Of a stretch of 35,075 nucleotides of DNA, positions 15,887-35,075 are shown in pieces. The notes below the pieces were generated by a model. The model had not been told where the DNA came from. It worked only from the letters and a program-made list of their open reading frames with translations, and did no database searches. The stretch is from Deltaproteobacteria bacterium (lineage in GTDB: Bacteria > Desulfobacterota > Dissulfuribacteria > Dissulfuribacterales > QOAL01). The first letter of the stretch is position 1. Each line of letters begins with the position of its first letter. Location: the NCBI GenBank assembly GCA_026986785.1, contig JALSNW010000029.1:1-35075 (forward strand), given 5' to 3'. The position numbers and the translations under genes are program-made.

Positions 15887-18394
15887 ATGAGAAAGACAAG
15901 AAAAAGACCTCTTAGACGAACATTCCAGTATTTCAGGAATATCCTGGACCTCAATAACCAGATTCTGGAGGAGATTGCCCATGCAGAACGGGTGCTCGGG
16001 GGCAACTATCTCTTCGATAGGGCCTTTTTGGTGGATTTTGTCACCACTGTTTGTGAGACCACCAGAAAGGTCGTTTTCAATCTCAATAGCCTGACCAATG
16101 GTCATTATCTTGTCCTCTTCGACAGACTGGAATCGTTGAGATGTATCCTTGAGGACATTCTCTCTGGAGGCACAGGTTCTCTTGGAGATGAACTGACCCT
16201 CTCATACCGGGATATAAATCGCGATCTCGACGAGGTGGTGGGCTCCAAGAACGCCAACCTTGCAGATATGCACAACAACTTCCAGGTGAACATACCACGT
16301 GGGTTTGCCATAACGGTTGCAGCTTACAATCTTTTTCTCGAGGCCAATGATATAATCCCCAAGATAAAAAAGATATACGAGAAGGTCTCCGATGCAGATG
16401 CAATCGAGAAAGAGGTGAGGGCAGTGTTCAAAGAATCTGCCGTGCCAGAGGAGATGGCAGAGGCTGTAAAGGTGGCACTCGAAGATCTATACCAGGAAAT
16501 CGGGGCATTTTCAAAGCTTGCAATTCGCAGCAGTGCCATTGGTGAAGACACGGAAAGGAGTTTTGCCGGCCAGTTTCATACTGTTTTGAATGTCTCTTCT
16601 GAAGACCTGTTCGATGCGTACAAAGAGGTGATCATGGCCAGGTTCATGCCAGAGGTCATGAACTATCTCGGAAGAGACAGGGACCTTTCTTCTAACCCGG
16701 TGGCCGTTGGGGTTCAGGAGATGATAGATGCTGCTGTTTCAGGCGTGGCCTATACCAGAGAGCCCCTTGGGGAGCACAAGGATTGCCTCGTCATTGGTGC
16801 TGTAGAGGGACTTGGCGAGAGCTTGGTAGGTGGTCATCTGAGTGGCGAACACTATGTGCTCAAGCGTCTATATCCCTTCCCCCTTGTGTTGAGCTTCATA
16901 TCCGAGAAACCCTCGGACCACAGGTTGCCCGATGGCAAGCGAGCCCTCGATCAGACTACGGCCCATTTGAAAAGGGGCTCTTCCCTGCTCACCACAAAGG
17001 ACCTGAAAACTATTGCCGAGACAGCCATGTTGTGCGAGAAGGCCTTTGGTACTCCTCGCGACATGGAATGGGCCCTTGACAACGAGGGCAGGCTGACAAT
17101 GCTCCAGAACAGGCTTCTTGCCATTCAAGTTGCCCCGAAGCCAATGGATGCAGACATAGAAAAGATCATAGAGGGCTTCCCTGTGCTATTGGATGGCCTT
17201 GGTCATACAGCTCAGCTCGGGGTGGCATCGGGGAAGGTTGTCCATGTTGACCCGGATGGTGACTTGGAAAAGGTGCCTGTTGGGGCCATCGTGGTTTCCA
17301 GGTACGCCCATCCAAGGTTGAGTCGCGTACTCAAGAAGGCAGGAGCGATTATAACGGATGTGGGGAGCTCTACGGGACATCTCGCCACCATTGCCAGGGA
17401 ATACAGGGTACCGGCAATCTTCGGCACTGGAAAGGCTACATCGGTTCTGGAAGATGGGATGGAGGTGACTGTGGATGCCGATGAGAGAAAGGTCTATCTG
17501 GGGATAATAGAAGAGCTGGTGGAGCAAGAGGCAAGGCGTGACTGGGAGTACATGGAAGAACCAGAGATCAAGGCCCTCAGAAGGATTCTCAGTTATGTGG
17601 CCCCTCTCTACATGGTCGATCCAGGGGCCAGTGATTTTGTCCCTGAAAATTGCAAGACCATTCATGATATCATCCATTTTTCTCATATAAAGGCGGTTGA
17701 TTCCTTGATCGAGCAATTTTCTTCTGTCAAGGAGATAGAGGGAGAAAGGGCCTTTGAATTAGAGGCCGATCTCCCGATAAAGATCACCATAATCGACATA
17801 GGAGATGGGGTGGAAGCAGAGGAAGGGGGCAGCCAGATCGAGGTGGGACAGATTCTTAGCGTGCCGATGAATGCCCTATTGAAAGGCCTTTTGAGACAGG
17901 ATGCCTGGGACAGGGAGCCTGCCCCCTTTGCAATTGGCGACCTTTTCTCCAGTATGACCCGGCCGGTGAGCATGTTGACTAATCCCCCTGAATACTCGGG
18001 CCAGAATCTGGCCATAGTAGGCAGGGAATATATGAACCTGAGCCTGCTGCTCGGCTATCATTACAATGTAATAGATTCCTTTGTCAGCCATGAGCCTGAT
18101 AAGAATTACATATACTTTCGTTTCGCAGGTGGATTTGCAGAAGAGTCCAAGAGGAGAAAAAGGGTCGAGCTCATAAGATGGATACTTGAAACCCTTGGTT
18201 TCAAGACAGAAGTGAGGAAGGATGTAGTCATAGGGAAAATCAAGGGGATAGAAAATCATAACCTGCTCACAGTGCTTCAGCATATCGGGGAACTGATCGC
18301 GTTTACCAGACAGCTCGATGTGAGGATGGCGGATGAAGATGCGGTTGAACGGTTCTACGATGGTTTCCTGGACTTGTGCCGGGAGTGCACTTAA
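15887..18394 (+). CDS. PEP-synthase-like ATP-grasp/phosphohistidine protein, paralogue 1
   Basis: An 835-residue cytoplasmic protein. A helical N-terminus (1-105) is followed by the PPDK/PEP-synthase ATP-grasp region, with VGSKNANLADM (118-128), the nucleotide-binding LAIRSSAIGEDTERSFAGQF (211-230) and DMEWALD (392-398). The swivelling phosphohistidine domain has His498 in DVGSSTGHLATIARE. PEP synthase would next have its PEP/pyruvate barrel; I see none of that barrel's motifs. Instead there is a C-terminal region of about 280 residues with CKTIHDI (589-595), LEADLP (625-630), GREYMNL and YIYFRFAGG. By family logic it should autophosphorylate on His498 from ATP; the acceptor is unknown, and PEP synthesis is doubtful. 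ATG 15887 has GAGG only 4 bases before it. Paralogue 2 starts 22 bases after its stop. Confidence 0.8.
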   Translation: MRKTRKRPLRRTFQYFRNILDLNNQILEEIAHAERVLGGNYLFDRAFLVDFVTTVCETTRKVVFNLNSLTNGHYLVLFDRLESLRCILEDILSGGTGSLGDELTLSYRDINRDLDEVVGSKNANLADMHNNFQVNIPRGFAITVAAYNLFLEANDIIPKIKKIYEKVSDADAIEKEVRAVFKESAVPEEMAEAVKVALEDLYQEIGAFSKLAIRSSAIGEDTERSFAGQFHTVLNVSSEDLFDAYKEVIMARFMPEVMNYLGRDRDLSSNPVAVGVQEMIDAAVSGVAYTREPLGEHKDCLVIGAVEGLGESLVGGHLSGEHYVLKRLYPFPLVLSFISEKPSDHRLPDGKRALDQTTAHLKRGSSLLTTKDLKTIAETAMLCEKAFGTPRDMEWALDNEGRLTMLQNRLLAIQVAPKPMDADIEKIIEGFPVLLDGLGHTAQLGVASGKVVHVDPDGDLEKVPVGAIVVSRYAHPRLSRVLKKAGAIITDVGSSTGHLATIAREYRVPAIFGTGKATSVLEDGMEVTVDADERKVYLGIIEELVEQEARRDWEYMEEPEIKALRRILSYVAPLYMVDPGASDFVPENCKTIHDIIHFSHIKAVDSLIEQFSSVKEIEGERAFELEADLPIKITIIDIGDGVEAEEGGSQIEVGQILSVPMNALLKGLLRQDAWDREPAPFAIGDLFSSMTRPVSMLTNPPEYSGQNLAIVGREYMNLSLLLGYHYNVIDSFVSHEPDKNYIYFRFAGGFAEESKRRKRVELIRWILETLGFKTEVRKDVVIGKIKGIENHNLLTVLQHIGELIAFTRQLDVRMADEDAVERFYDGFLDLCRECT

Positions 18395-18415
18395 CAATCG
18401 GGGGCACATTTATAG

Positions 18416-21073
18416 ATGCTGGACTGGCTGAAAAAACAGGTGGGGCGTTTCCAGGAGAAACGTCAGCAAAAGGCCCATGAGTATCTCCAAGAACTCAAAT
18501 GGAGGTATCAGATATTTCGGTCGCTTCTCTATGAAAATACCAGGGCCGTGGAGCTTATTACTGACATCGATCTGAAGTTTAGGGAGTCGGATTTCTTTGG
18601 TCCAGATGTCAGGCACAAGATCCGCGAGCTCGTGGATGTGACAGCCGAGCTTGTGGAGAAGCTGAACCAACTCGATTACGACAGGCACGCAGCCTTGTTC
18701 AACATCCAGAAGAAGGTTGGCGCGAGGATCGATGAGTTGTTGAAAAAGATCCCCAGCTACAAGGATCTCCCCTATTGTGTACCCATCGAGGAATTGCCTC
18801 CTCAGTGTTCTCAATTTGCAGGGGGAAAGGCCTGTACCTTGGCGAAATTGAGGGCTGAAGATGGGTTTCATGTGCCTGATGGGTTTTCCGTGTTGGTCAA
18901 TGGATGCCGATATTTTCTCGAAGAAAGCGGGTTGTCCATTGCAATACTGAAAAGGCTTCAACCTGTTATTTTCAAGGGCAAAGAGATGACCAGCCAACTG
19001 GAGGAGGAAATCAAAAGACAGGTAATGGGGGCACAACTTCCCGGCCCCTTGGAGGAGGCCCTCAGGCGTATGTCCTCCAAATTCTTTGAGCAGGGCAAGG
19101 GGCTTGCCGTAAGGAGCAGTGCCCTTAGTGAAGATGGGGCGCAGCATTCGTTTGCTGGGCAGTTCACGTCTGTGTTGAATGTGGTCTCCTTTGAAGGTCT
19201 CAAGAAGGCAGTAAAAGAGGTCATTGCAAGCAATTTCAATGGTCGGAGTCTGGCTTACAGGATCGGGGCTGGTATGAATGCCTTGGATTTCAACATGGCT
19301 GTCTTGTGCATAGAGATGGTAGACGCGGAAAAGGCCGGGGTCATTTTCTCTCTGGATCCGAATGACCAGGAACTGAGGACCATGCTCATCAGCGCCCTGT
19401 ATGGTATGGGGGAGCTGGTAGTCTCTGGCGCCTCTATGGTTGATGTGTACAAGCCATTCAGGAGGTCAGAGGCTGGCGTGCTCTTTGCAGAGCCCCCTGT
19501 CATAGCGAAGAAGACAAAGCGCCTGACACTGGACCCAAAAGGAGGCCTCAGGGAAGAGGATATTCCCCCTGGGATGCAACAGAGGCCTGTCCTGTCAGAA
19601 GACGAGGTAAGGGAGCTTGTGTCTCTCAGTCTCAGGATAGAAAAGGTCCTTGGAGGCCACCAGGATATAGAATGGGCCATTGACAAGGAGGGGAGGGTTT
19701 GGATCATCCAGGCCCGTCCTCTGATCCTGGAGGGGCCGTCGAAGAAGCGCAAGTTTGATCTGGAGCACAGGACCTCCTTGTTCGAAGAGAGCCTGATAAC
19801 CTCCAGGGGGATAGTGACAGGCAAGGTAAAAAAGATACGTAGCCGTCAAGACCTTGATGCCTCCTTTGACGAGCCCACCATCTTGGTCATGCATCGTAGT
19901 CTCGTGGATGCAGCTAAGGTCATGAGCCGTATCGTTGGACTCTTGGTGGATTTTGGCAATCCGGCAGATCACCTTTCGTGTGTTGCTAGGGAATATGGCA
20001 GGCCGATGTTGGTGGGCCTTGTCGATGCCATGAAAAGGCTCGAGGATGGAACTTGGGTCACCATCGATGCCGATCATGGCAGGGTGTTTGAGGCAGAGGA
20101 CCAGGAGATAAAAGATGCCATAGCCGAGTTCAGGAAAAGAAGACAACAGCAACAAAAATCCCTTGAAGCAGGCCAACAGAAGAATACTGTGCTGGAAGAG
20201 CTCAAGGCATTGACCGTCAAACTGAACCTGACAGATGCCTATGGGCCTACTTTTTCCATCATGGAGTGCCGTTCTCTCCACGATATAGTGCGCTACGTGC
20301 ATGAAAAGGCCGTAATGGCCTTTTTCAAGGCAGGAGATGAACTACTTGAAGAGACATCTGGTGTTGTCTACAAGCTCGAGAGCGATATCCCCTTTTTCCT
20401 CCAGATAATAGATATGGGAGGAGGATTGGTGCCGGAACTGAAAAAAAAGAGAAGTGTTACCCCTGATGAAATACGCTGCCGGCCCTTCAAGGCCTTGTGG
20501 AAGGGAATCTCCACCCCAGGGCTCAGATGGGCAGGGCCTCCTCCTGTGGTCGGCAATGTCAGTTCCGTAGTGGGGCGATGGATGTCTGACACCAGGAGTC
20601 AAAGGCCTCTTGGTATGCCAAACTATCTGATAATTGCCAGGGATTATCTCAACCTCAATGCCAGGATGGATTTTCATTTCACCATGGTGGATAGCCTATG
20701 TGGCCTCGATCACAGAGAGAACCACGTAAAATTCCGGTTCAAGGGTGGAGGGACCACCTTGAAACAGCGTAACAGGCGAGCCCGTGCCATAGGGGAGATA
20801 CTCGAGCGTGCAGATTTTTTCACTGATGTCAAGGCAGACCTGGTGAATGCCACATTCGCATATGCCCCGGCCGAGGTCATCGAGGAAAAGCTCGTAATAG
20901 TCGGTAGGCTTCTTGGCTTTACAAGGCTTATAGATGCGGCCATGTACAGTGACGAAACCCCCCACCTGGTTGCCGACGCCTTTTACGAAGGGGACTATGA
21001 GCTTAATAAACTCGTGGAGATGATCTCGAGGCAGCAGGGGAAAGAGGAAAAGCAGGACGTGACTCATGCGTGA
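18416..21073 (+). CDS. PEP-synthase-like ATP-grasp/phosphohistidine protein, paralogue 2
   Basis: An 885-residue protein with the same plan as its upstream neighbour. A basic helical N-terminus (1-115) precedes the ATP-grasp region with FAGGKACTLAKL (134-145), LAVRSSALSEDGAQHSFAGQF (230-250) and DIEWAIDKEG (417-426). The swivel domain has phospho-His519 in DFGNPADHLSCVARE. A Gln/Lys-rich helical linker (565-595) leads to the C-terminal domain with ECRSLHDI (617-624), LESDIP (654-659), IIDMGGG, ARDYLNL (741-747), DFHFTMVDS and VKFRFKGGG. No PEP/pyruvate barrel is visible. It lies 22 bases after paralogue 1, so the two are one operon and could form a heteromer. Its 3' end overlaps the convergent phosphatase gene by 10 bases. 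The substrate is unknown. Confidence 0.8.
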   Translation: MLDWLKKQVGRFQEKRQQKAHEYLQELKWRYQIFRSLLYENTRAVELITDIDLKFRESDFFGPDVRHKIRELVDVTAELVEKLNQLDYDRHAALFNIQKKVGARIDELLKKIPSYKDLPYCVPIEELPPQCSQFAGGKACTLAKLRAEDGFHVPDGFSVLVNGCRYFLEESGLSIAILKRLQPVIFKGKEMTSQLEEEIKRQVMGAQLPGPLEEALRRMSSKFFEQGKGLAVRSSALSEDGAQHSFAGQFTSVLNVVSFEGLKKAVKEVIASNFNGRSLAYRIGAGMNALDFNMAVLCIEMVDAEKAGVIFSLDPNDQELRTMLISALYGMGELVVSGASMVDVYKPFRRSEAGVLFAEPPVIAKKTKRLTLDPKGGLREEDIPPGMQQRPVLSEDEVRELVSLSLRIEKVLGGHQDIEWAIDKEGRVWIIQARPLILEGPSKKRKFDLEHRTSLFEESLITSRGIVTGKVKKIRSRQDLDASFDEPTILVMHRSLVDAAKVMSRIVGLLVDFGNPADHLSCVAREYGRPMLVGLVDAMKRLEDGTWVTIDADHGRVFEAEDQEIKDAIAEFRKRRQQQQKSLEAGQQKNTVLEELKALTVKLNLTDAYGPTFSIMECRSLHDIVRYVHEKAVMAFFKAGDELLEETSGVVYKLESDIPFFLQIIDMGGGLVPELKKKRSVTPDEIRCRPFKALWKGISTPGLRWAGPPPVVGNVSSVVGRWMSDTRSQRPLGMPNYLIIARDYLNLNARMDFHFTMVDSLCGLDHRENHVKFRFKGGGTTLKQRNRRARAIGEILERADFFTDVKADLVNATFAYAPAEVIEEKLVIVGRLLGFTRLIDAAMYSDETPHLVADAFYEGDYELNKLVEMISRQQGKEEKQDVTHA

Positions 21074-21720
21074 ACAAATTTCCTCTCTGGCAGTACGACA
21101 GCAGTGAGCAGGTTGCCATAGGCTGCCCCGGTGTCTATGCCGATCTTGTCTTCTGTCACCAGAGGAAGCTCAAAAGGTGTGTGGCCAAATACCACGGTCT
21201 TGCCAATAGTGACCCTGGATTCCAAAAAGATATCCCGCACCTCGCAAAAATCCATGGCCGTCTGTTTCTCCAAGGCTATATCAGGTCTGACCCCGGCGTG
21301 TACGAAGAAGTATTCCCCTTCTTCGTGAAAGAGCTTCAGATTTTTTAGGAACCGAGTATGTTCTTCTGGCATGAATGAAAGGGTGTGAAGGCGGCTCAGG
21401 TCCTCTTCTCCATAGCTCCTGAGAAAATTTTCTATCTTTTGCTGTCTGAGATATGGAATAAGGGCCTCATCCGGGGCCTTGACATATTCCAGGAGCAGAT
21501 TTTCATGGTTTCCCAAGAGGCAAACAACCCTTTCAAATGTCTTTTGTAGCTGGACGAGGGTTGAGATAACCTCCTTTGAGTCGGGGCCCCGACCTATGTA
21601 ATCCCCAAGAAAGACTGCCGTGTCTTCATCCCGAAGGGAGAGGCGTTCAAGGAGGTCATGTAGTTTGGTACTACAGCCGTGAATATCACCGATTGCTATT
21701 ATCCTTCTGCTTGATGTCAT
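21064..21720 (-). CDS. PPP-family metallophosphatase
   Basis: A 218-residue protein with the full set of PPP Ser/Thr phosphatase metal-binding motifs: GDIHG near the N-terminus, GDYIGRGPDS, GNHE, the first metal histidine in FVHAG and the last in GHTPFE. Bacterial relatives dephosphorylate phosphoproteins or cleave diadenosine tetraphosphate; I cannot tell which here. I chose the ATG at 21720, with AGGACAG just upstream, over the TTG at 21753. It converges on dikinase-like paralogue 2 with a 10-base overlap of the 3' ends. A role in reversing a phosphorylation made by those proteins is possible but is only inference from position. Confidence 0.88.
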   Translation of the reverse strand: MTSSRRIIAIGDIHGCSTKLHDLLERLSLRDEDTAVFLGDYIGRGPDSKEVISTLVQLQKTFERVVCLLGNHENLLLEYVKAPDEALIPYLRQQKIENFLRSYGEEDLSRLHTLSFMPEEHTRFLKNLKLFHEEGEYFFVHAGVRPDIALEKQTAMDFCEVRDIFLESRVTIGKTVVFGHTPFELPLVTEDKIGIDTGAAYGNLLTAVVLPERKFVHA

Positions 21721-21891
21721 GGTCTGTCCTGAAAAGAATATCGCCCATATCAATGGTGAAGCCCAGATTGTGCAGTCAAGATACCTGAAAAAGACAATTC
21801 TTTTGAATGATTACATGGTTAGCATACATCTGATCCCATTTTATTTTCGTTCTATAAAGGTGAAGTCCAATCTGTGATCAGTCTTCAGGCA

Positions 21892-22544: not shown

Positions 22545-22583
22545 GAAAATCAAGAAGCAGTATTTCCGGAGGAGGCAATGGTG

Positions 22584-23897
22584 ATGAAACGTCTTTTAAT
22601 GGCAATGGTAATAGTATTGGTATGCTGTTTGACGGCAACTGTAGTACTTGCAGGAGGAGGTGGTCCTCCAAAGAACCTGATCAAGGGTTTTTTTCTCAAG
22701 ATCAACCCTGACCATACAGCAATATTCAAGAAGGATGTCACAGGTGAAGAGATCAGCTTGAAACTGTCAGAAGACATCAAGCCCGAAGATATACCCATGA
22801 ACAGGAAGGTCTTGGTGACACTTAAAACAGAGGGACATGAGATCACCAACGAGGTCAAGCGTATCTCGATAATGTTTATAGACCTTCCGGTGAGCAAGGT
22901 GATAGCCCTTTTGGTGGTTGGTCTGATTGGGGGACTGTTGAGCGGCTTTATTGGCTCAGGAGGGGCCTTTGTGCTCACACCCTCCATGATGTCTTTGGGG
23001 GTCCCCGGGGCTGTTGCAGTGGCCAGTAACATGTGTCACAAGTTTCCCAAGGCAATGGTAGGTGCTTATAAACGTTGGAAGTACGGGCAGGCCGATGTGA
23101 AACTCGGCCTTTTCATGGCTGCTTCTGCTATCGTTGGGGTCCAGATAGGTATACAGATACAGAAATACATACTGGATCATTGGGGCAATGCCGGCTCCAA
23201 CCTCTATGTGAGTCTCATGTTCGTCATAATACTTGTAGTAGTGGGTACATATGTTTTCTATGATGCTTTTAAACTAAAGAAAGGTGGGAAAGAGGCCGAA
23301 GTCACAAAACTTGCCTTGGCCCTACAGAAGATAAACCTGCCTCCAATGATCCATTTCAAGCAGGCAGGCATAACAATCTCCATCTGGTTTACCATACCAG
23401 TGGGGGTGGCAACTGGTATGCTGGCAGCCACTATAGCAGTAGGTGGTTTTATCGGGGTGCCTGGGCTTATTTACGTCATAGGTGCGTCTGCTGTGGTTGC
23501 AAGTGCTACCGAGTTGGTAATCGCATTTGTCATGGGTATGTGGGGGTCCATACAATGGGGTTTGAGTGGTCTGATTGATATTCGTCTTACTTTGTTGATC
23601 CTCGCTGCCTCTCTGATCGGGGTACAGCTTGGTGCCCTGGGGACAACCTATGTAAAGGACTATATGATAAAGATAGTCATGGGGGCTGTCATGCTCATAG
23701 TTTCTGTCAGTCGTGGGGCAAAGATACCAGCCTATCTCGCAGACTTGGGCCTTCGTCCTCCTTTGACTCCTCAAACAGCGGCATTATACGATGCCATAAG
23801 TTTTTGGGCTCTGGTCGCCGCCCTTGGGGCTGCTGGCATAATCATATCGGCAGCCATGATAAGGGGCATGCTCCAGGCCAGGGCCGAGGGCTTGTAG
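22584..23897 (+). CDS. TauE/SafE family exporter with extra N-terminal periplasmic domain
   Basis: A 437-residue membrane protein. A cleavable-looking signal (residues 1-23, ending VVLAGGGG) and a periplasmic segment of about 70 residues with a KDVTGEEISLKLSEDIKPEDIP-type stretch precede the TauE/SafE fold. That fold has two related halves, the first starting GGLLSGFIGSGGAFVLTPSM and the second GMLAATIAVGGFIGVPGLIY. Family members export sulfite, sulfoacetate or related organosulfur anions. The start at ATG 22584 puts GGAGG 8 bases upstream; the ATG at 22578 is too close to it. Transport direction and substrate are inferred from the family only. Confidence 0.87.
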   Translation: MKRLLMAMVIVLVCCLTATVVLAGGGGPPKNLIKGFFLKINPDHTAIFKKDVTGEEISLKLSEDIKPEDIPMNRKVLVTLKTEGHEITNEVKRISIMFIDLPVSKVIALLVVGLIGGLLSGFIGSGGAFVLTPSMMSLGVPGAVAVASNMCHKFPKAMVGAYKRWKYGQADVKLGLFMAASAIVGVQIGIQIQKYILDHWGNAGSNLYVSLMFVIILVVVGTYVFYDAFKLKKGGKEAEVTKLALALQKINLPPMIHFKQAGITISIWFTIPVGVATGMLAATIAVGGFIGVPGLIYVIGASAVVASATELVIAFVMGMWGSIQWGLSGLIDIRLTLLILAASLIGVQLGALGTTYVKDYMIKIVMGAVMLIVSVSRGAKIPAYLADLGLRPPLTPQTAALYDAISFWALVAALGAAGIIISAAMIRGMLQARAEGL

Positions 23898-24061: not shown

Positions 24062-24142
24062 GTAATTAATTGTGTAAAAGGTTTAATTGGCCGTATATAT
24101 ATAAGAGGGACTTAATAAAAAAAGAACATGGTAGGGAGAATT

Positions 24143-26095
24143 ATGAAGAACAGATTCGTTAAAGAGATGTTTGCAGGTGTATTTGCCTGTTTACTCATGT
24201 TTTTGGGGCAATCAGTGTTTGCAGCCGAAAAATTGGTGTCGCAATCCCCTGTCCTGACAAATGACATCATGATAGTGCTTGCTGTGCTTGTCTTTGCCAT
24301 TTTGTTATTCATCTTTGAATGGGTAAGGGTGGATGTTGTTGGGATCTTGATGATGGTCATATTGCCCCTCCTTGGAGTTGTCACTGCCAAGCAGGCCATC
24401 AGTGGACTTAGTTCCAATGCAGTGGTCTCCATCATAGCTGTAATTATCATCGGGGCTGGTCTTGATAAGACCGGGGTCATGAATATCCTTGCCAGGCAGA
24501 TCATAAAGCTTGCTGGGAAGTCAGAGACGAGGATAATGGCCCTCATTGCGGCAACAGTGGGTCTTATCTCAAGTTTCATGCAAAATATAGGTGCAGCCGC
24601 CCTCTTCATGCCTGCTGCTACCAGGATCAGCAAGCAGCTTGGCGTGCCAATATCACGCATACTCATGCCAATGGGGTTTTGTGCAATCATTGGCGGATGT
24701 ATCACCCTCGTTGGTTCAAGTCCATTGATCCTCCTTAACGACCTCATGGAGCAGTGGTGGAACAACAATATCTCTTTATTGGGAGGCAAGGCCTTTGAAC
24801 CCTTTGGCCTTTTTACTGTCACCCCCATGGGTCTTGCCCTTTTGCTTGCAGGCATCGTCTATTTCGCCCTATTGGGTAGGTGGATCCTTCCTGCCAAAGA
24901 GGCCCAGGAAGGTTCAGGGCTCATGTCTGGACAGGTCGAGAGCCTTTATTCCATTAAGGTGGGCAAGAGGCCCTTCGAGATGGTTGTGCCGGAAAAATGG
25001 AGGCCGAGAAGTCTCGATGATCTAAATTTCAGACCTACATACAAGTCGACCATCGTTGGGATCTATAAGCCAAAAGAGAAGAAGATGATCCTTTCTCCCC
25101 AGAGGGACGATGTTGTCGAGCCTGGAGACATAGTGGCCGTTTTTGGCAGGCAACAACATGTAAAAGAAATAGAGCATGATCTTGGTTGGAAGGCAAAGGA
25201 GGATATGGAGTATTTTGCAGAGATGCTTTCTCCCAATAATAGCGGTGTCGTGGAGGCGGTCATTCCCCCAAATTCAAAACTCGTTGGCACTACCATGAGG
25301 GACCTCCATTTCAGAAAGACCTTTGGAGTAAATCCTCTTGCCCTGAACAAGGGGGGTGAGATCATACGAAGGAATATCTCGAGGATGAAGCTGCGCTCTG
25401 GAGATGGTCTTCTCTTACTTGGGCCATGGGAGAGGCTTCATTATCTGAAGAAGAAGGGAATCCTGCTTTTTACCGAGGACCTCAAGGGTGAAATAATGCG
25501 GCCAGATAAGGCCCTGCCAGCCTTGGCCTGCCTGGCTCTTGCCCTTACCCTGGCCCTTGGCTTCCATGTTCAGCTTTCCATATCTCTTCTCAGTGGGGCC
25601 CTTGGCATGGTGCTTTTGAAGGTCATGTCCATAGATGAGGCCTATCAGTCAGTGGACTGGATGACGGTTTTTTTACTTGGCGGTTTGATACCTTTGGGTA
25701 TAGCCTTTGAGACCACAGGGGCAGCCCGTTACATTGCCACGAGTATCATGAATGCCATGGGAGAGGTGAGTCCATTTATGCTGCTACTGATCGTTGGCCT
25801 CCTGACCTCATTCTTCACCCTTGTGGCTTCAAATGTTGGTGCTACCGTGCTGCTGGTTCCTCTTACCATGAACATGGCATTTCAGGCTGGGGCAGATCCC
25901 AAGATGGCGGCCTTGGTGGTGGGCATAGCAGCCTCCAATACGTTTGTACTCCCTACACATCAGGTGAATGCACTCATCATGAGGCCAGGTGGGTATCGTA
26001 CCATTGATTATGTAAGGGCCGGGACCGGTATGACCATATTATATCTCGTTGTAATGATGGCCATGCTCAAATTCGTTTACGGTATTTCCGCTTGA
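24143..26095 (+). CDS. SLC13-type anion permease with two RCK_C (TrkA-C) domains
   Basis: A 650-residue membrane protein. A signal-like N-terminus (MKNRFVKEMFAGVFACLLMF, ending VFA) is followed by a first block of helices with SNAVVSIIAVIIIGAGLDKTG. Two cytoplasmic RCK_C-like regulatory domains follow (about residues 275-365 and 372-450, the first with RDDVVEPGDIVAVFGR and the second with RSGDGLLLLGPWE). The second helix block carries VASNVGATVLLVPL and ASNTFVLPTHQVNALI. This is the plan of SAC1-like SLC13 permeases, some of which carry or sense sulfate. I start at ATG 24143, behind GGGAG; ATG 24128 in the same frame has no ribosome site. First gene of a run with the NhaD-type permease 16 bases downstream. 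Confidence 0.87.
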   Translation: MKNRFVKEMFAGVFACLLMFLGQSVFAAEKLVSQSPVLTNDIMIVLAVLVFAILLFIFEWVRVDVVGILMMVILPLLGVVTAKQAISGLSSNAVVSIIAVIIIGAGLDKTGVMNILARQIIKLAGKSETRIMALIAATVGLISSFMQNIGAAALFMPAATRISKQLGVPISRILMPMGFCAIIGGCITLVGSSPLILLNDLMEQWWNNNISLLGGKAFEPFGLFTVTPMGLALLLAGIVYFALLGRWILPAKEAQEGSGLMSGQVESLYSIKVGKRPFEMVVPEKWRPRSLDDLNFRPTYKSTIVGIYKPKEKKMILSPQRDDVVEPGDIVAVFGRQQHVKEIEHDLGWKAKEDMEYFAEMLSPNNSGVVEAVIPPNSKLVGTTMRDLHFRKTFGVNPLALNKGGEIIRRNISRMKLRSGDGLLLLGPWERLHYLKKKGILLFTEDLKGEIMRPDKALPALACLALALTLALGFHVQLSISLLSGALGMVLLKVMSIDEAYQSVDWMTVFLLGGLIPLGIAFETTGAARYIATSIMNAMGEVSPFMLLLIVGLLTSFFTLVASNVGATVLLVPLTMNMAFQAGADPKMAALVVGIAASNTFVLPTHQVNALIMRPGGYRTIDYVRAGTGMTILYLVVMMAMLKFVYGISA

Positions 26096-26111: not shown

Positions 26112-27947
26112 ATGAATACGGATTTGTCTATGCCTGTCTTCAGCAATTCGGGCTGTAAGGCTGGGTCTATTATTGCTACTGTGGTGCTATTTCTTGCAGT
26201 CATTCTTCTCCCTATGGCTGGCACTGCTGTTGCTGAAAAAGCCCATGGCCATTCAGGAGATACAGGGGGCTCTGAGGCATCTGGGCCTGGAGAAACCCTT
26301 GCCATTTCCGGGAAGATCTCAAATCCCCACAGTACAGGGGTGGACGATGTCAAACTGAAGGTCTTTTTAAATGGGCAGGAACTGGAGCCAGTGGCCAAGA
26401 AGGGCCAGCACGCCCATGGAGAGGCCGGGCTCAAGACAGAGGCTGACGGGACGTTTCAGACCGTGCTCGCATTGCCTCCAGGAAGCATCAAGGGTGCCAA
26501 GATAGAGATAGAGGCATTCAAGCCGAGCTATGAGACTGGAAGGGTCAGCTTGGACAATACGAGGATCGCTTTCGATGGGCAGAGATACCTGGCACATGTG
26601 GATCTCACCATAAAGCGCACACAAGGGCCTGCCTTCTGGATAGCCACCATTATCTTTATCCTCGCATATGTTCTCATTTCTTTCGAGCTTCTACACAGGA
26701 CCTTGGCTGCAATGCTTGGTGCAGCCACCATGTTGGTCATCAGCTATACCCTGGGGACAATAAATCCGGAATACCATATCCTTTCCTACGAGAGTGCCAT
26801 TCATGCCATTGATATGAATGTCATCTTCCTCCTCATGGGCATGATGATCATCGTGGGTATCCTGAAGCACACAGGGGTGTTTCAATGGTCGGCTTATCAA
26901 TGCTACAGACTGGCAAAAGGGAATGTAATCTTGCTGTCGGTAATACTCATGAGTTTTACTGCTGTGGCATCCGCATTCCTGGACAATGTCACAACCATGC
27001 TTTTGCTTACCCCTGTAAGCATAGAGATTGCCTTGTCCCTTGGTATCAACCCCCTGGCCCTCCTCATACCAGAGGTGTTGGCCTCAAATATTGGTGGAAC
27101 GGCTACATTGATAGGTGATCCTCCAAACATCATGATCGGCTCATATGCCGGGCTTACCTTTATGGATTTTGTCATAAACCTTACTCCCGTGTGTATAGTC
27201 TCTATGGTGGTCCTTTTTGTATATTCCAGGTTTGCCTATGGCAAGGAGTATGGGAAGGCCACCGTAACTGATATACAGGCCTTCATAGAAAAACTCCGGC
27301 AGGAATACCAGATCACCGATTCCCAGCTTCTCACAGTCGGTGGCATCATAATGGGCATAGTGGTGGGTATGTTTTTGACCCATGGCTATTGGCACATGGA
27401 GGTGAGTATTGCAGCACTTTTTGGGGCTGCCCTGCTGTTCACCTATGGTTTGCTCACGAAAAAGATCGATCTATTGACCCTCATAGAAAAAGACATAGAG
27501 TGGACCACACTTCTCTTTTTCATGTTTCTATTCATACTTGTAGGGGCAGTGGAAGAAACAGGCCTGTTGGATCTTATTGCCGACTGGGTACTTCATCTGT
27601 CTCATGGCAGTCTGGTAACCTCTATCTGCCTCATCCTATGGGTATCTGCGATTATGAGTGCATTCGTGGACAACATACCATTTACAGCAACCATGCTTCC
27701 GATAGTGGGATATCTGACCCAGGTGATACCAGGCGCTGATTCTGGTGTCCTCTGGTGGGCATTGGCATTTGGTGCATGTTTTGGAGGTAACGGTACCATG
27801 ATAGGTGCAAGTGCCAATGTCGTAACCCTTGGTATCGCAGAATCGGCAGGACATCCAATGAAATTTTTTGGTTTCATGAAAGTGGCCTTCCCGTATATGC
27901 TTGTTAGTGTGGCCATTGCCAATGTCTGGTTACTGATCTTTTATTAA
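26112..27947 (+). CDS. ArsB/NhaD-superfamily permease with N-terminal periplasmic domain
   Basis: A 611-residue protein. A hydrophobic N-terminal segment (about 18-41) is followed by a His-rich, Gly-rich stretch (KAHGHSGDTGG) and an Ig/carboxypeptidase-regulatory-like domain of about 110 residues outside the membrane. Then come about 12 helices of the ion-transporter superfamily. The paired half-motifs are clear: SAFLDNVTTMLLLTPV with GGTATLIGDPPNIMI in the first half, and SAFVDNIPFTATMLPI with GGNGTMIGASANVV in the second. Relatives carry Na+/H+, arsenite or dicarboxylate; the substrate is unknown. AGGAGG lies 9 bases before the ATG. It follows the SLC13 gene by 16 bases. Confidence 0.87.
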   Translation: MNTDLSMPVFSNSGCKAGSIIATVVLFLAVILLPMAGTAVAEKAHGHSGDTGGSEASGPGETLAISGKISNPHSTGVDDVKLKVFLNGQELEPVAKKGQHAHGEAGLKTEADGTFQTVLALPPGSIKGAKIEIEAFKPSYETGRVSLDNTRIAFDGQRYLAHVDLTIKRTQGPAFWIATIIFILAYVLISFELLHRTLAAMLGAATMLVISYTLGTINPEYHILSYESAIHAIDMNVIFLLMGMMIIVGILKHTGVFQWSAYQCYRLAKGNVILLSVILMSFTAVASAFLDNVTTMLLLTPVSIEIALSLGINPLALLIPEVLASNIGGTATLIGDPPNIMIGSYAGLTFMDFVINLTPVCIVSMVVLFVYSRFAYGKEYGKATVTDIQAFIEKLRQEYQITDSQLLTVGGIIMGIVVGMFLTHGYWHMEVSIAALFGAALLFTYGLLTKKIDLLTLIEKDIEWTTLLFFMFLFILVGAVEETGLLDLIADWVLHLSHGSLVTSICLILWVSAIMSAFVDNIPFTATMLPIVGYLTQVIPGADSGVLWWALAFGACFGGNGTMIGASANVVTLGIAESAGHPMKFFGFMKVAFPYMLVSVAIANVWLLIFY

Positions 27948-28020: not shown

Positions 28021-28986
28021 ATGGTACAAAAGGTAGAACCTCTTACGAAATTCTTGCTGCCCATTGACGGAAAAGGCACCTATAAGGCAGCCTGCGGACT
28101 GGCTGGTTCTCTTGCCGCCGTATGCAAGGACAGGGTCAAGGAGATCACCCTGCTGCATGTCATGGCTGGAAGGTATCTCAGTACCCATATGGCAAATATA
28201 GATATAAGGGTCGACACTGTACTCGAAAGCGACTTGTTCAAGCGGCTCAAGGAAGATTTCATCAATAAGCAGATCCAGCCGGTGTTGGACGAGGCGGCTG
28301 AGATCATCAAGAAGATATATCCAGAAGGGCATATCGATTCCAAGGTAAAGGATGGGAAGCCTTCACGGGTCATAATAGATTTCGTGAAGGAAAATGAATA
28401 TTCCACAATTGTTATGCAGAGACGGTGCATGGATCCGGTGAAGGGTTCTTTCATTGGCAGTGTAACCTCGGGTATCCTATATGGGAACGGTTCTTGTTCT
28501 GTCTATATACCTGGTACGGACTATCCTCCGGATGGGAGCAAGGTGGACTTTCGAAGCCTTCTCGTCCCTGTCGATGGTTCCCCTGGTTCCCTGGCGGCAG
28601 TGGAAGAGGCAGCGATATTGATGAACTTCGTGCCAGAGGCACGTATCCTATTACTGAATGTCGTAGACGTAGTCGACATAGCCAAGGCAGCCGAGAAGAA
28701 TCTGTGGCCTTCTCCTGTCCAGGAGGCCGAAGGAATTCTGGAGAAAGCGGTCAAGATATTGACAAGCTCTGGTATCGAAAGGGATAGGATGGATAAGAAG
28801 GTAATGCCAGGGGATCCTGCCGAGGTCATAGTGTCAGAGGCGGAATCATCGAGTGCAGACATAGTCTTTGTGGGCCGCACTGTGCGCAGTCCTTTTACAG
28901 ATATAATCGTGGGGAGTGTGGCACGTGCAGTACTTGGTAGGTGCGCCAAGAAGACATTGGCGGTCATAACTCCTGAGGCCCAATAG
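28021..28986 (+). CDS. tandem universal stress protein
   Basis: A 321-residue soluble protein of two UspA-type alpha/beta domains (about residues 8-165 and 177-321). Each has the LLPIDG or LLVPVDGS first strand, a conserved central VIVxFVKE or VIVSEAESSSADIVFVGR segment, and a final GSV...L strand. The ATP-binding G-x2-G-x9-G(S/T) loop is incomplete in both halves, so nucleotide binding is uncertain. GAGGGGG lies about 4 bases before the ATG. It follows the NhaD-type permease by 73 bases with no terminator and may be its stress-linked regulator or partner. Confidence 0.88.
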   Translation: MVQKVEPLTKFLLPIDGKGTYKAACGLAGSLAAVCKDRVKEITLLHVMAGRYLSTHMANIDIRVDTVLESDLFKRLKEDFINKQIQPVLDEAAEIIKKIYPEGHIDSKVKDGKPSRVIIDFVKENEYSTIVMQRRCMDPVKGSFIGSVTSGILYGNGSCSVYIPGTDYPPDGSKVDFRSLLVPVDGSPGSLAAVEEAAILMNFVPEARILLLNVVDVVDIAKAAEKNLWPSPVQEAEGILEKAVKILTSSGIERDRMDKKVMPGDPAEVIVSEAESSSADIVFVGRTVRSPFTDIIVGSVARAVLGRCAKKTLAVITPEAQ

Positions 28987-30301: not shown

Positions 30302-30404
30302 CTTTCCTACTACCGGATAAACGTCTTTGGCCGCATACGAGTTCTGATTCCTGCTTCCTCGATACCTTACATCTTCACCAAGCCTGCGAGCTGCATGATC
30401 TGGC
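30300..30404 (-). repeat. Dispersed repeat, copy C (partial)
   Basis: On the minus strand, from 30404 downward, about 37 bases match the start of copies A and B, with CAGCTC-CAGGCTT and GAAGAT conserved. The remainder, to about 30300, has diverged or is a different variant. The left boundary is approximate. Confidence 0.4.
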
Positions 30405-30581
30405 TCCAATTCTTTGAAGTAGAGCTGTTTCGAAGAGAAACAGGTGTTACATGTGAAAAAATTATATAATCTCAATAGGTTATATATGGTTGTTTCTGAA
30501 TGAAACAAATGTCTTGTTATTTTTTGCACACAATCTTGGAAACTTCAGTGCTTTTTTTATAAAAGCCTTTTCAAAACAATA

Positions 30582-30616
30582 TGTTACGTCATTTGGCACT
30601 TTAATTGCCAGTAACA
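30582..30616 (+). other. Interrupted hairpin
   Basis: TGTTAC (30582-30587) and TGGCA (30594-30598) pair with TGCCA (30606-30610) and GTAACA (30611-30616), leaving a 6-base bulge on the left arm. No T-run follows. It could be a protein-binding site or an RNA element; function unknown. Confidence 0.35.
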
Positions 30617-30714
30617 CATTCAACTAAGGTTCTCAACTCCTGAATATAAATTTTCCAGAGTTTTTGTGATGATCCATATAGTTGTAAAGGAAGCTTGAGG
30701 TAGCGAATCAGGGA

Positions 30715-31233
30715 ATGGAGAAAAGGGTAGCGCTTTTGGCAGATGGTAATACTTCGGATCTGTATGCGAGTTTTTGTGCAGTAAAACTGGCCAGGAGAAT
30801 GGAGGCGAGGCTTTTGTCCATACTGCTTATGCCAGACAGACATGCGATTTCGGGGAATTCTTGTTCTGAACGGTGGCAGAGCTGTTCTCCTTCTGAATTT
30901 CTTTCTTTGATATCGAGTCTTGGAAATTTCGAGGGGGTCCAGCTTTCATACAACCTCATTGATGAAAGAGACGAGGATAGTCTGGTGGAGTTCCTCGTTG
31001 AGAGTAAGATCACCTGTTTGATCATGGGAACCGTGAATCAAGACGACTTCGATAAGAAACAGAAATGGTTATCGGCCCTGGTTAAAAGGATATGCCAGAA
31101 CCGCCGCTGGTACATGGGAGAGGATCTGACCGTGTTTCTCGCAAAACCGTGGAGTGAGAAGGACTTTAAGAAAGTTCTCAAACAGATTAGTTCCGATTGC
31201 TGCCTTTATCCAATAGAGATGGTATTTGGCTGA
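30715..31233 (+). CDS. Usp-like single-domain protein
   Basis: A 172-residue soluble protein. Strand-helix pattern fits the universal stress fold: KRVALLADGNTSDLYASFCAVKLARRMEA at the start, LLSILLMP as the second strand, and ITCLIMGTVNQDDFDKK in place of the usual VVxGSxG loop. The nucleotide-binding glycines are mostly missing. The C-terminal 50 residues (WYMGEDLTVFLAKPWSE and beyond) go past the core fold. AGGGA lies directly before the ATG; a better GAGG is 20 bases off. It precedes the second TauE/SafE gene by about 110 bases and may belong to that unit. Confidence 0.68.
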   Translation: MEKRVALLADGNTSDLYASFCAVKLARRMEARLLSILLMPDRHAISGNSCSERWQSCSPSEFLSLISSLGNFEGVQLSYNLIDERDEDSLVEFLVESKITCLIMGTVNQDDFDKKQKWLSALVKRICQNRRWYMGEDLTVFLAKPWSEKDFKKVLKQISSDCCLYPIEMVFG

Positions 31234-31342
31234 TTGGAAGTGGAAAGGACTAAGGTATCCCAGAGAGATATGACAGGCATAGCCCTGGATTGTGGCAGGG
31301 CCCCTGTTTATTCAAGGGAAAAAATAATTAGGAGGGTTTAAT

Positions 31343-32293
31343 ATGTATGTCTATTTGCCAATTGCACTAACCAGTGTGAGCCTCTGGCTGGTAGTGGGCC
31401 TGGGCTTGCTGGTGGGCCTTTTATCAGGCCTCTTCGGGGTAGGTGGGGGGTTTCTCATGACCCCTCTTCTCATGATGATAGGTATTCCACCTACAGTTGC
31501 CGCAGCTACAGATGCCAACCAGATCGTTGCGGCCTCTGCATCAGGCACCTTGGCCCATTGGCGGCTTGGAAACGTGGATTTCAAGATGGGCCTTTTGCTC
31601 CTGGTAGGTGGCTTTACCGGCGGCGCCCTGGGTGTCCATGTGATCAAGGTCTTGAGGGCTACAGGAGGGGCTGATTTCCTGATCAAGATGACCTATGTCA
31701 TCATGTTGGGCGTGGTTGGTGCTTTTATGTTTTTCGAGAGCCTAAATGCCCTCAAAAAGCAAAAGGCAGCAGCATCCATGTCTGAGGCCGAACTGAAAAG
31801 GGAAGAGGACAAGAAGAAGGCAAAGGCCAAGAAAAAGGGTATGTTGTCTTCTCTGCCTTTCCAGGTCCATTTCGAGAAATCAGGCGTTACCCATTCGGCC
31901 ATTCTGCCAATAGCTCTGGGCATATTCGTTGGCGTATTGGCGGCAATCATGGGGGTTGGTGGTGGCTTCCTCATGGTTCCTGTCATGATCTATCTCCTTC
32001 GCATGCCCATGCACGTTGTGGTTGGAACCAGTCTCTTCCAGATAATGTTCACCTGTGTAGAGGTTACTTTCCTTCAAGCATATCAAAACCATACAGTGGA
32101 CATCGTTTTGGCCATCTTGCTTCTTGCCGGCTCTACTATCGGGGCCCAGGTGGGTACTACTCTTGGAAAGAAGCTCCACGGTGATCAGCTCAAGATATTG
32201 CTGGCAATAATAGTCCTTGGTGTAACAGTGAAGATGATTCTTGGCCTGGTTCTGGAACCATCCTTGTTACTGGCACACGGAGGAGGGCATTGA
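31343..32293 (+). CDS. TauE/SafE family exporter no. 2
   Basis: A 316-residue membrane protein of about 8 helices in two related halves. The half signatures are GLLSGLFGVGGGFLMTPLLM near the N-terminus and GVLAAIMGVGGGFLMVPVMI in the second half, both classical for TauE/SafE. The halves are joined by a highly charged cytoplasmic linker (about residues 140-170, KREEDKKKAKAKKK). The protein ends in AHGGGH. AGGAGG lies 7 bases before the ATG. The next gene starts 2 bases after its stop, so the two are tightly coupled. Likely exports sulfite or another sulfur oxyanion or organosulfonate; the substrate is inferred. Confidence 0.9.
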   Translation: MYVYLPIALTSVSLWLVVGLGLLVGLLSGLFGVGGGFLMTPLLMMIGIPPTVAAATDANQIVAASASGTLAHWRLGNVDFKMGLLLLVGGFTGGALGVHVIKVLRATGGADFLIKMTYVIMLGVVGAFMFFESLNALKKQKAAASMSEAELKREEDKKKAKAKKKGMLSSLPFQVHFEKSGVTHSAILPIALGIFVGVLAAIMGVGGGFLMVPVMIYLLRMPMHVVVGTSLFQIMFTCVEVTFLQAYQNHTVDIVLAILLLAGSTIGAQVGTTLGKKLHGDQLKILLAIIVLGVTVKMILGLVLEPSLLLAHGGGH

Positions 32294-32295
32294 TC

Positions 32296-33075
32296 ATGAA
32301 GCAATTTAAGAAGATCACAAAATACGTGGCTGTCAGCATCATGGTATTGGCTGTGGGGATATTCTTGGGTAGTCAGGCTATGGCCTTGACATGCAAGGTC
32401 TCTCCAGGGAAGATCCCAATAAGCCTTGGTTATCATGGGACAAAGGTGTCGATAACCGGTGAAGGCCTGACGACTCAAGATCTCATAGTCCAGATCTATT
32501 CCCCTCCAGGCGAAGAGCACCTCAAATACAAAGGCAAGGCCGGAGGGATATTCTGGATGAAACTTGGTACAATGATTTTTGAAAATGTACCCAAGGTCTA
32601 TCTGGTGTATTCCACCAAGGATACCCATGAACTCCTTTCTCCAGATACATGCAAGGAGCTGTCTATCGGGTTTGATTCCCTAAAGAAAAAGGCTGTCATA
32701 AAGAGTAACCTGAAGAATCTTGACAGGGAGAAGTGGCTCAAGGAGTTAATGAAGTTCAAAAAGGTCGAGCACCTTTATCTCGAACAGTCGGGAGTGATCA
32801 AGGTGGATACTGCCAACCATTCCTACAGCCTCAATATCGACTGGCCTTTCGAGGCCCCACCAGGGGAATACATAGTAGAGGTATATGCCGTAAAGGATGG
32901 AAAGGTTGTAGACAAGGCTGAGGCAAAGATAAAAGATGAAAGGGTAGGGATAGAGGAAATCCTTTCACATATGGCCTTCGAAAAACCAGCAGTTTATGGT
33001 ATTATCGCTATCGTGGTGGCTATTATTGCTGGATTTGGTGTCGGCATGGTATTCAAGGGAGGTGGCGGCCATTAA
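32296..33075 (+). CDS. TIGR02186-type membrane-anchored periplasmic protein, TauE/SafE partner
   Basis: A 259-residue protein with a signal peptide (residues 1-28, ending QAMA before LTCKVSP), a periplasmic beta-rich domain of about 195 residues, and one C-terminal transmembrane helix (AVYGIIAIVVAIIAGFGVG) ending in KGGGGH. The start LxxxVSPxxIxIxxGYHGxxVxIxG, the later APPGxYxVEVY and the terminal anchor fit the TIGR02186/Alph_Pro_TM family, which I recall as a frequent neighbour of TauE/SafE genes. I start at ATG 32296, 8 bases after AGGAGGG; the TTG at 32290 in the same frame is less likely. Two bases after the TauE/SafE stop. Probably a periplasmic subunit or substrate-handling partner of that exporter; no function is proven. 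Confidence 0.78.
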   Translation: MKQFKKITKYVAVSIMVLAVGIFLGSQAMALTCKVSPGKIPISLGYHGTKVSITGEGLTTQDLIVQIYSPPGEEHLKYKGKAGGIFWMKLGTMIFENVPKVYLVYSTKDTHELLSPDTCKELSIGFDSLKKKAVIKSNLKNLDREKWLKELMKFKKVEHLYLEQSGVIKVDTANHSYSLNIDWPFEAPPGEYIVEVYAVKDGKVVDKAEAKIKDERVGIEEILSHMAFEKPAVYGIIAIVVAIIAGFGVGMVFKGGGGH

Positions 33076-33117
33076 GTAGGTTTTCTTAACCAGGAAATAT
33101 CTTTTAATTCAATATTC

Positions 33118-33163
33118 AGCCCCTGCCTTGCCATAAAAGACAGATAAAGGTAGGGGCTTTTTA
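33118..33163 (+). terminator. Terminator after the second TauE/SafE unit
   Basis: A 12-bp stem AGCCCCTGCCTT (33118-33129) with AAGGTAGGGGCT (33147-33158), one G-T wobble, a 17-base loop and a T-rich tail. It separates the exporter unit from dikinase-like paralogue 3. Confidence 0.88.
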
Positions 33164-33184
33164 TTCTCCAGGAGAGATAAGTTA

Positions 33185-35075
33185 GTGGCGTTTTTTCAAG
33201 GGATCATTGATAAAATTAAGGGTAGCCTGGGCGTCCAAAAAGGGCGTCAAGAGGTCTCCATAAAGACCAAATTCGAACAGTTCAAGAAGGTTCTTCGGTC
33301 GAATCAGGTAGCCCTTGAGATAATCGCTGACATGGGGGAAAAACTCAGTGGCGATTATATCTTTGACAAGCGTTATATCGAAGAGTCCTATGAACGCCTC
33401 TCCCAGGCTGTTCTCAGAAGTGTCAATGCCCTAAACACCCTATGCGATAACAGGTACAAGGATCTTTACGAGGTCTATGACAGGGTTACAAGGCATCTGC
33501 TCGAGATACTTAAGCAGAGAGAAGACAGAACAGGGCCTCCTGTAATCCTATTGAAGGACATCTCCAGGGCACATAGCGCCATAGTAGGGGGCAAGGCCAG
33601 GCATCTTGCCAAGATCATCAGGGATCTCGGCCTCCCAGTCCCAGAGGGCTTTGTGATAACCACAAGGGCGTATCACGATGTCATCACATATAGTGGTCTG
33701 GCCAATATAATCGATAGACTCGAAGGGCTTATTGCATCCCCTGTGGTAAATCCAGATGAGATAGAGACACTTCGTAGGCAAGTCAAGGAAAAGATAGAAA
33801 GGATTGAGCCACCGCCACGTCTACTTGATGAGATCGCCTATGCCTTGGCCCAGATAAAGCTCGATAAGGCACGCACACATCTTGCCGTCAGGAGCAGTGC
33901 CCAGGAAGAGGACATGGATTTTTCGTTTGCTGGCCAATTCGATACGGTGCTCAACGTCATGGCCACTGCCCAGGATATCTTTCTTGCCTATAGAAAGGTC
34001 ATGGCAAGTCTATTTGGTAAACACGTGATAGCATACAGGCGTACTGTCCTGGAGGGTGAAGGCCAGATGTCCATAGCCGCCATCTGTCAGGTTATGGTGG
34101 ATGCCAGGAGCAGTGGGGTGCTCTATACGGTCGATCCATTGGATTCTCTGTCGGAGGATATGGTCATAGTGGGGAACTGGGGCCAAGGTGAGGCCGTGGT
34201 GGATGGGAAGATGCCGACAGATCTGTTTCGCGTGTCCAAGCGGGATGGCCTGAAGATCGTCAAAAAGGAGATCAGTAAAAAGAGGCAGGCCTTGTACCTG
34301 AGCCCGGCAGGGGGACTTGAGAAAAGAGATGTCCCGGTGGACCTCCAGGACAAACCATGTCTCACGGACCAGGAGGTCTTGAAGCTTGCCCAAATAGGTA
34401 GCCGGTTGGAAAATTACTTCAAGCGCCCTCAAGACGTAGAGTGGGTTGTGGACAAGAGGGATCGTCTCTTGATCCTTCAGTCCAGAGAGCTTTTAGTCAA
34501 ACATGATGAACGTGTAGAAAGGGCCCTTCTCGATCTGGAGGATAAATACGAGGTAATCTCCAGTGGAGTGGGTATGACTGCCCAACAGGGAATAGGCTAT
34601 GGGCCTGTAAAGATCGTCAGGACCCTCAAGGACCTGGATGACATCCCAGAAGGGGCGGTGCTTGTCAGCCCAAGAGACATGTCCAATTTTGTCCAGGTGA
34701 TGAAAAAGGTCTCTGCAATAGTCACAGAGGTTGGCACACCTGTTAGCCATATGGCCACCATATGCAGAGAGCTTGGGGTGCCTTGCCTCGTGAATGTCAC
34801 GGGAATACTCGACAAGGTACATGACGGCATGGAGATAACGGTAGATGCGGAAGACCAAAAGATCTACAAGGGCAAGGTGCATGAACTCCTGGTCTACAGG
34901 AATTCCCGCGTCATAAATGTGTTTGAATCCAGGGATTTTAGGCTGCTTAGAAGATTACTCAATGCAGTTGCACCGCTAAACCTCGTGGATCCACTGATTG
35001 AAGAATTCAGGATGGAAAATTGCGAGACCTACCACGATATCCTGAGATTTATCCATGAGAAGGCGGTTCAAGAGT
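33185..35075 (+). CDS. PEP-synthase-like ATP-grasp/phosphohistidine protein, paralogue 3 (3' end outside window)
   Basis: The frame is open from a GTG at 33185 to the right edge, 630 codons. The start has AGGAGAG 8 bases upstream. The plan matches the two paralogues at 15887-21073: a helical N-terminus (1-115), VGGKARHLAKI (134-144), ATP-grasp HLAVRSSAQEEDMDFSFAGQF (232-252), DVEWVVDKRD, and the swivel domain with phospho-His522 in EVGTPVSHMATICRE. The shared C-terminal domain is just beginning at the window edge: ENCETYHDILRFIHEKAV (611-628) lines up with CKTIHDI and CRSLHDI of the others. No PEP/pyruvate barrel motif is seen before the edge. The substrate is unknown. It lies after a strong terminator, so it has its own transcript. 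Confidence 0.8.
   Translation, partial: MAFFQGIIDKIKGSLGVQKGRQEVSIKTKFEQFKKVLRSNQVALEIIADMGEKLSGDYIFDKRYIEESYERLSQAVLRSVNALNTLCDNRYKDLYEVYDRVTRHLLEILKQREDRTGPPVILLKDISRAHSAIVGGKARHLAKIIRDLGLPVPEGFVITTRAYHDVITYSGLANIIDRLEGLIASPVVNPDEIETLRRQVKEKIERIEPPPRLLDEIAYALAQIKLDKARTHLAVRSSAQEEDMDFSFAGQFDTVLNVMATAQDIFLAYRKVMASLFGKHVIAYRRTVLEGEGQMSIAAICQVMVDARSSGVLYTVDPLDSLSEDMVIVGNWGQGEAVVDGKMPTDLFRVSKRDGLKIVKKEISKKRQALYLSPAGGLEKRDVPVDLQDKPCLTDQEVLKLAQIGSRLENYFKRPQDVEWVVDKRDRLLILQSRELLVKHDERVERALLDLEDKYEVISSGVGMTAQQGIGYGPVKIVRTLKDLDDIPEGAVLVSPRDMSNFVQVMKKVSAIVTEVGTPVSHMATICRELGVPCLVNVTGILDKVHDGMEITVDAEDQKIYKGKVHELLVYRNSRVINVFESRDFRLLRRLLNAVAPLNLVDPLIEEFRMENCETYHDILRFIHEKAVQE

Follow-up and report, generated by a model that had tools for sequence, protein, structure and literature searches.

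PEP-synthase-like proteins with a different C-terminal domain, linked to two-component and anion-exporter genes, are candidate signalling phosphotransferases

PEP synthase carries an ATP-grasp domain followed by a central phosphohistidine swivel domain, and ends in a C-terminal TIM barrel (PF02896). Outside the PTS, the swivelling dikinases that have been characterised use small-molecule acceptors (PMC4844700, PMC12167813). Genes with this kind of front half are found in published genomes as PEP synthases, and Dissulfurimicrobium hydrothermale Sh68 is listed with five of them, including LGS26_08740, 08745 and 08765 (PMC8780430). Here we describe three paralogues (P1, P2 and P3, Table 1) in a window of 35,075 nucleotides, the whole stretch of DNA analysed, which is an entire contig (C29) of a genome of 2.59 Mb. 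Like PEP synthase (TIGR01418), they have the ATP-grasp and then the central swivel domain in the same order, and the PEP synthase structure 2OLS aligned to a family protein in Foldseek at 24% identity. They differ from PEP synthase in an extra N-terminal helical domain of ~100 aa and in an unrelated domain of 265 aa where the barrel would be.

Table 1. Positions of the family genes, key residues and neighbouring genes; positions refer to the window unless a contig (C6) is given.
Feature	Position	Strand	Remarks
Paralogue 1 (P1)	15887..18394	+	835 aa; ORF, Pfam, AlphaFold2 model
P1 C-terminal domain, ~265 aa	17567..18391	+	Pfam, NCBIfam, PDB-sequence and fold searches without significant match
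P1 H593 and D594 codons, T-H-D-I motif	17663..17668	+	H593 retention follows that of the kinase half
Paralogue 2 (P2)	18416..21073	+	885 aa; P1-like architecture; C-terminal domain ~593-856
Paralogue 3 (P3)	33185..35075	+	630-aa open frame, cut by contig end
Predicted phosphorylated His codons	P1 H498 17378..17380; P2 H519 at 19970; P3 H522 at 34748	+	
Metallophosphoesterase	21064..21753	-	Metallophos; PrpA/ApaH-like below named cut-offs; recurrent convergent P2 neighbour
TauE/SafE family anion exporter	22578..23897	+	
Two CitMHS-family transporters	24128-26095, 26112-27947	+	
Universal stress protein (double Usp)	28021..28986	+	
TauE/SafE exporter of type A operon	31343..32293	+	
Alph_Pro_TM membrane protein	32290..33075	+	PF09608 E 1.4e-51; TIGR02186 below its cut-off
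CheY-like receiver after P3 tail	C6:969-1352	+	
Sigma-54 response regulator after P3	C6:1369-2778	-	
Histidine kinase after P3	C6:2762-4246	-	

The open reading frames and the phosphorylatable histidines (residues 498, 519 and 522) that a sequence-only reading of this DNA had proposed were found exactly at the positions it gave. HMM matches and a full-length AlphaFold2 model of P1 (pLDDT 82.9) divide this protein into the N-terminal helical domain (residues 1-100), the ATP-grasp (104-411), the swivel domain with H498 (430-540) and the C-terminal domain (~561-835). The dikinase front half is complete, as had been claimed; PPDK_N (E 1.2e-61 to 3e-77) and the PEP-utilizers mobile domain PF00391 (E 5.6e-13 to 2.1e-18) were matched by Pfam in all three proteins, with ATP-binding residues and histidine intact, and on these two domains the proteins belong to the swivelling dikinase superfamily. 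Among aligned members, K121, R214, S215, S216 and Q407 are kept in 117/119 and E394, R409 and H498 in 118/119, and pairwise identity between P1, P2 and P3 is 25-32%. The P3 frame continues onto contig C6, which overlaps the window end by 144 bases with 3 mismatches, giving a reconstructed protein of ~861 aa; the C6 tail encodes the common C-terminal domain, which is therefore present in all three paralogues. The same genome has a fourth family member (C44:57542-60022), preceded 15 bases upstream by a gene for a protein with DUF202 and a receiver (L040:6436-7467, + strand).

The PEP-utilizers_C barrel PF02896 was absent from P1, P2 and P3 both in Pfam and in profile searches against PDB sequences, and the matches to PDB sequences and to PEP synthase models end at the swivel domain. 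PEP synthase models were the top NCBIfam matches, with TIGR01418 reaching 251-310 bits against a cut-off of 739.75. The pyruvate phosphate dikinase model TIGR01828, whose barrel is likewise absent here, scored 32-44 bits (cut-off 843.45), and the rifampin phosphotransferase model NF041857 scored 151-251 bits (cut-off 999), the His domain of the family being central. HMM and structure searches found no TIM barrel, so the claim that the pyruvate barrel is missing and that a different common domain replaces it held for all three proteins, once P3 had been completed with its C6 tail. With a complete dikinase front, no barrel and another domain in its place, pyruvate is an improbable acceptor, and the proteins are unlikely to be PEP synthases. 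Genuine barrel proteins are encoded elsewhere in the same genome, namely a normal PEP synthase of 816 aa (C22) and a PtsI-sized protein of 602 aa (C45).

Searches with the C-terminal domain gave no consistent Pfam match across 71 members and no NCBIfam or PDB sequence match. Its model (pLDDT 82.5) found only background-level similarity, with a best E of 6.7e-3 in Foldseek (PDB, BFVD) and a best Z of 5.8 in VIA-align (rmsd 4.4, 105 aligned). These matches assign it to no known fold, and they do not by themselves prove a new one. Within the domain, D594, H600, P660, H725, G748, G749, R759 and D811 are invariant or nearly so among aligned members. It had been proposed that three diverged copies imply distinct substrates; this was not supported, as one set of invariant polar residues is retained throughout the family and what differs between copies is the set of genetic partners. 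Because D594, H600, H725, R759 and D811 are invariant across all paralogues, conservation argues for one chemistry under different regulation rather than for different substrates.

The family also includes relatives that have lost the kinase half. Kinase-less members of 367-410 aa join the N-terminal helical domain directly to the C-terminal domain, without ATP-grasp or swivel; one member of 801 aa has a degenerate ATP-grasp and no phosphohistidine, and one of 274 aa consists of the C-terminal domain alone. The unit that is kept is thus the N- and C-terminal core, and the phosphohistidine engine between them can be dropped. Three further members that looked kinase-defective were left out of this group: L086 (split by a frame break), L104 (short start) and L076, in which the ATP-grasp is degenerate with H498 and H593 kept. 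All seven kinase-defective relatives keep D594, H600, H725, R759 and D811, which suggests that these residues serve a function persisting without the kinase, such as target binding. H593, on the other hand, is lost in 5/7 kinase-defective but only 1/147 kinase-intact proteins (Fisher p 1.8e-7), and it is the only column lost with the kinase half among the 22 conserved at ≥95%. Two kinase-less forms retain it, and the sole kinase-intact member lacking it also has D392 of the ATP-grasp changed. The tree requires at least five independent kinase losses, and among five independent pairs H593 shifts in the same direction in 4 (median), with no pair going the other way, although the phylogenetic sign test gives a median p of 0.125, five pairs being too few for significance. 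Since H593 alone among the strongly conserved residues relaxes upon kinase loss, it is a likely partner of phospho-H498.

The neighbourhood was counted for 125 distinct family genes in 65 genomes. A two-component gene lies at most five genes away from 101 of them, in 60 of the 65 genomes, and receivers and histidine kinases are both among these linked genes; 79 have a TauE neighbour. An adjacent, co-directional short receiver was found for 47/125 family genes compared with 21/518 unlabelled genes of the same loci, counts that measure linkage and not phosphate transfer. Two operon types recur. In type A the order is TauE, Alph_Pro_TM, kinase and receiver, the receiver lying directly downstream of the kinase at 19 of the 20 loci where the next gene can be seen and overlapping it as called at 10 of them. 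In type B the order is receiver, TauE, the c10 partner protein and kinase, with the receiver preceding TauE in most loci where this is visible. The P3 locus is of type A, while no receiver is found next to P1-P2 in this genome. A scan of the long members found no receiver domain fused to a family protein.

In many genomes a phosphatase of ~350 aa, with an HCX5R signature and a Pfam DSPc match, directly adjoins family genes. Of 22 close-relative genomes with this phosphatase, a comparison of coordinates places a family gene just upstream in 21 (the exception is G031), and in one protein of 1252 aa (L181) kinase and phosphatase are fused. The genome of P1-P3 has no full-length copy of this phosphatase. 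The second half of the partner phosphatase (~190-302 in L135:7216-8268 and its relatives) resembles a separate family of ~190-aa proteins, one of which has a cysteine-rich C-x3-C-x2-CC start. The links to two-component receivers, TauE exporters and phosphatases, together with the kinase-less relatives, had been missed by the sequence-only reading.

The C-terminal domain was found in 49 genomes among ~100 relatives, with up to 12 copies each, and in 110/296 sampled species (genomes) of the phylum; a genome often has several copies. The relatives that carry a name are MAGs of Deltaproteobacteria and a single MAG of Thermoleophilia, and a few more members occur in the phylum of the latter. Plasmid records gave no match. 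In the tree, P1 falls within the type A clade while P2 belongs to a different one, and at least six further genomes keep their tandem, most of them with a metallophosphoesterase nearby. A hetero-oligomer of P1 and P2, as had been suggested, would be consistent with a conserved tandem pair drawn from different clades. Some members are much larger than P1: one of 1833 aa (L078:9760-15258, - strand) has ~1080 N-terminal residues that neither Pfam nor NCBIfam matches, and a subgroup of ~1060-1124 aa (L098:5490-8675, L066:2355-5726, L095, L096 and L097) has an extra C-terminal domain, weakly like 3-keto-disaccharide hydrolase in L098 and L066, the two that were scanned. Outside the family, contig C17 of the genome of P1-P3 encodes at L042:1787-7045 an HMG-CoA reductase of 903 aa that includes a fused kinase-like (EcKL/APH) domain and, directly after it, an 849-aa dikinase with a C-terminal His domain in RPH-like order.

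As the engine is kept, the pyruvate domain is swapped, and the neighbours include signalling proteins and an anion exporter, joined in relatives by a phosphatase, we read the family as signalling phosphotransferases built on the PEP-synthase engine and carrying out regulated, reversible phosphorylation, with a probability of roughly 0.45. It is the dedicated phosphatase of the relatives and the receivers alongside that make regulated, reversible phosphorylation the best reading, and judged from sequence and gene order a signalling kinase is more likely than an enzyme of sugar metabolism. In the proposed mechanism, the ATP-grasp would bind ATP and load phosphate onto H498 of the swivel domain, converting ATP to AMP and Pi as in PEP synthase and RPH. 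The loaded swivel domain would then turn to the C-terminal domain, where H593, beside D594, H600, H725, R759 and D811, would receive the phosphate or catalyse its transfer to a target held by the domain. Reversal of the mark would fall to the dual-specificity-type phosphatase, which one clade encodes as a partner gene and one protein carries as a fusion; for P1-P2, the nearby metallophosphoesterase may act as phosphatase. The co-encoded CheY-like receiver and histidine kinase would set the activity, and the commonest output would be the adjacent TauE/SafE anion exporter with its membrane partner. We infer the direction of phosphate flow, the target and the control by the receiver, as well as the catalysis, the last from homology with PEP synthase and RPH (PMC4844700). 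The most detailed version, a new signalling kinase made from PEP-synthase parts that passes phosphate from ATP to H498, to H593 and on to a target on a novel domain, is reversed by a dedicated dual-specificity-type phosphatase, can reach about a dozen copies in one genome, is wired to single-domain receivers and TauE exporters throughout the phylum and is annotated as PEP synthase, is tentative and, taken as one piece, rather unlikely.

The main rival is a small-molecule kinase, in which the C-terminal domain would bind a metabolite that is phosphorylated from H498 and the two-component genes would regulate expression only. The metabolite could be an anion that TauE or CitMHS transports, or a compound that phosphorylation would turn into a messenger (compare RPH and HpeHI). 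Characterised swivelling dikinases outside the PTS do have small-molecule substrates (PMC4844700, PMC12167813), transporters are constant neighbours of the family genes, and the invariant polar residues resemble a binding or metal site, the strict conservation of several H, D and R residues fitting a small-molecule active site equally well. However, up to 12 paralogues per genome with the same invariant site and their own receiver or kinase genes would not be typical of a catabolic enzyme, the single-domain receivers lack a DNA-binding part, and kinase-less forms persist beside the same partners, so that we regard this explanation as doubtful.

Next comes direct His-to-Asp donation, with phospho-H498 (or H593) passing phosphate to the Asp of the CheY-like receiver and replacing an HPt protein or histidine kinase. 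In type A loci the receiver is directly downstream and often overlaps, and the DD, D, T and K residues of the receiver beside the kinase are intact in 19 genomes. Compared with other short receivers, helix alpha-1 is its most conserved region (entropy ratio 0.38), a hint given that the comparison set is of mixed paralogues. This helix is the usual phosphodonor docking face of receivers. Nevertheless, normal histidine kinases in the same clusters could phosphorylate the receivers, an HCX5R phosphatase is better matched to phosphoesters than to phospho-Asp or phospho-His, and several family members have no adjacent receiver, which together leave direct donation improbable.

Less probable still is an ATP-loaded regulator without a further acceptor, in which phosphorylation of H498 would report the ATP or energy state and drive the N- and C-terminal core allosterically, much as a PTS-type transport regulator would. 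The persistence of both domains without the kinase in several lineages and the frequent TauE neighbour agree with it, but the loss of H593 along with the kinase suggests that phosphate moves on to the C-terminal domain, and the phosphatase partner also speaks against it.

The PPDK_N genes of G023 number exactly five, and three are family genes in an order fitting LGS26_08740, 08745 and 08765, and from this agreement with the published record we infer that G023 is D. hydrothermale Sh68. That P1-P3 are ordinary PEP synthase isoenzymes, as such annotation would have it (PMC8780430) and as their leading NCBIfam matches might suggest, is extremely unlikely and was rejected, given that the barrel is absent, the scores fall far below the cut-offs with alignments stopping at the swivel domain, and a gene of true PEP synthase size exists alongside, barrel-bearing in the genome of P1-P3 and of 816 aa in G023.

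Two other loci in the window are worth recording. A 790-aa protein (13173-15545, - strand) fuses a cysteine synthase-type PALP domain (residues 9-287) to a complete cysteinyl-tRNA synthetase (325-767), thus combining the making and charging of cysteine in one protein, and the fusion is also present in related genomes. At 3631-6107 (- strand), an ORF matching fibronectin type III (3634-4887) overlaps the argininosuccinate lyase gene (4683-6107), and one of the two probably has a wrong start.

Counting family genes as PEP synthases in published genomes overstates central carbon metabolism and conceals what would be an entire regulatory family. Should the kinase-phosphatase interpretation prove correct, the family would represent a bacterial reversible phosphorylation driven by a swivelling phosphohistidine domain, a system separate from the PTS and from both histidine and Hanks-type kinases. 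H498 and H593 offer a directly testable pair of residues. The engine is known, while the acceptor domain, the architecture and the linkage appear to be undescribed in the part of the literature that was covered, where the papers that name TIGR02186, or PEP synthase together with TauE or with response regulators, do not describe the family.

Among known systems, RPH, HpeHI, CreHI and PpsAB follow the same principle, in which the ATP-grasp and swivel domains stay and the acceptor domain is exchanged (PMC4844700, PMC12167813). Their acceptors are known small molecules and homology of their acceptor domains to that of the family was not detected; in RPH, moreover, the acceptor domain is central and the His domain C-terminal, whereas the His domain of the family is central. 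HPt proteins and histidine kinases are similar in that a phosphohistidine protein is encoded beside receivers, but their fold is unrelated. In PTS enzyme I and the nitrogen PTS, a swivel phosphohistidine domain homologous to that of the family is used elsewhere in regulating transport; the family differs in having no barrel, and its phosphate donor would be ATP instead of PEP.
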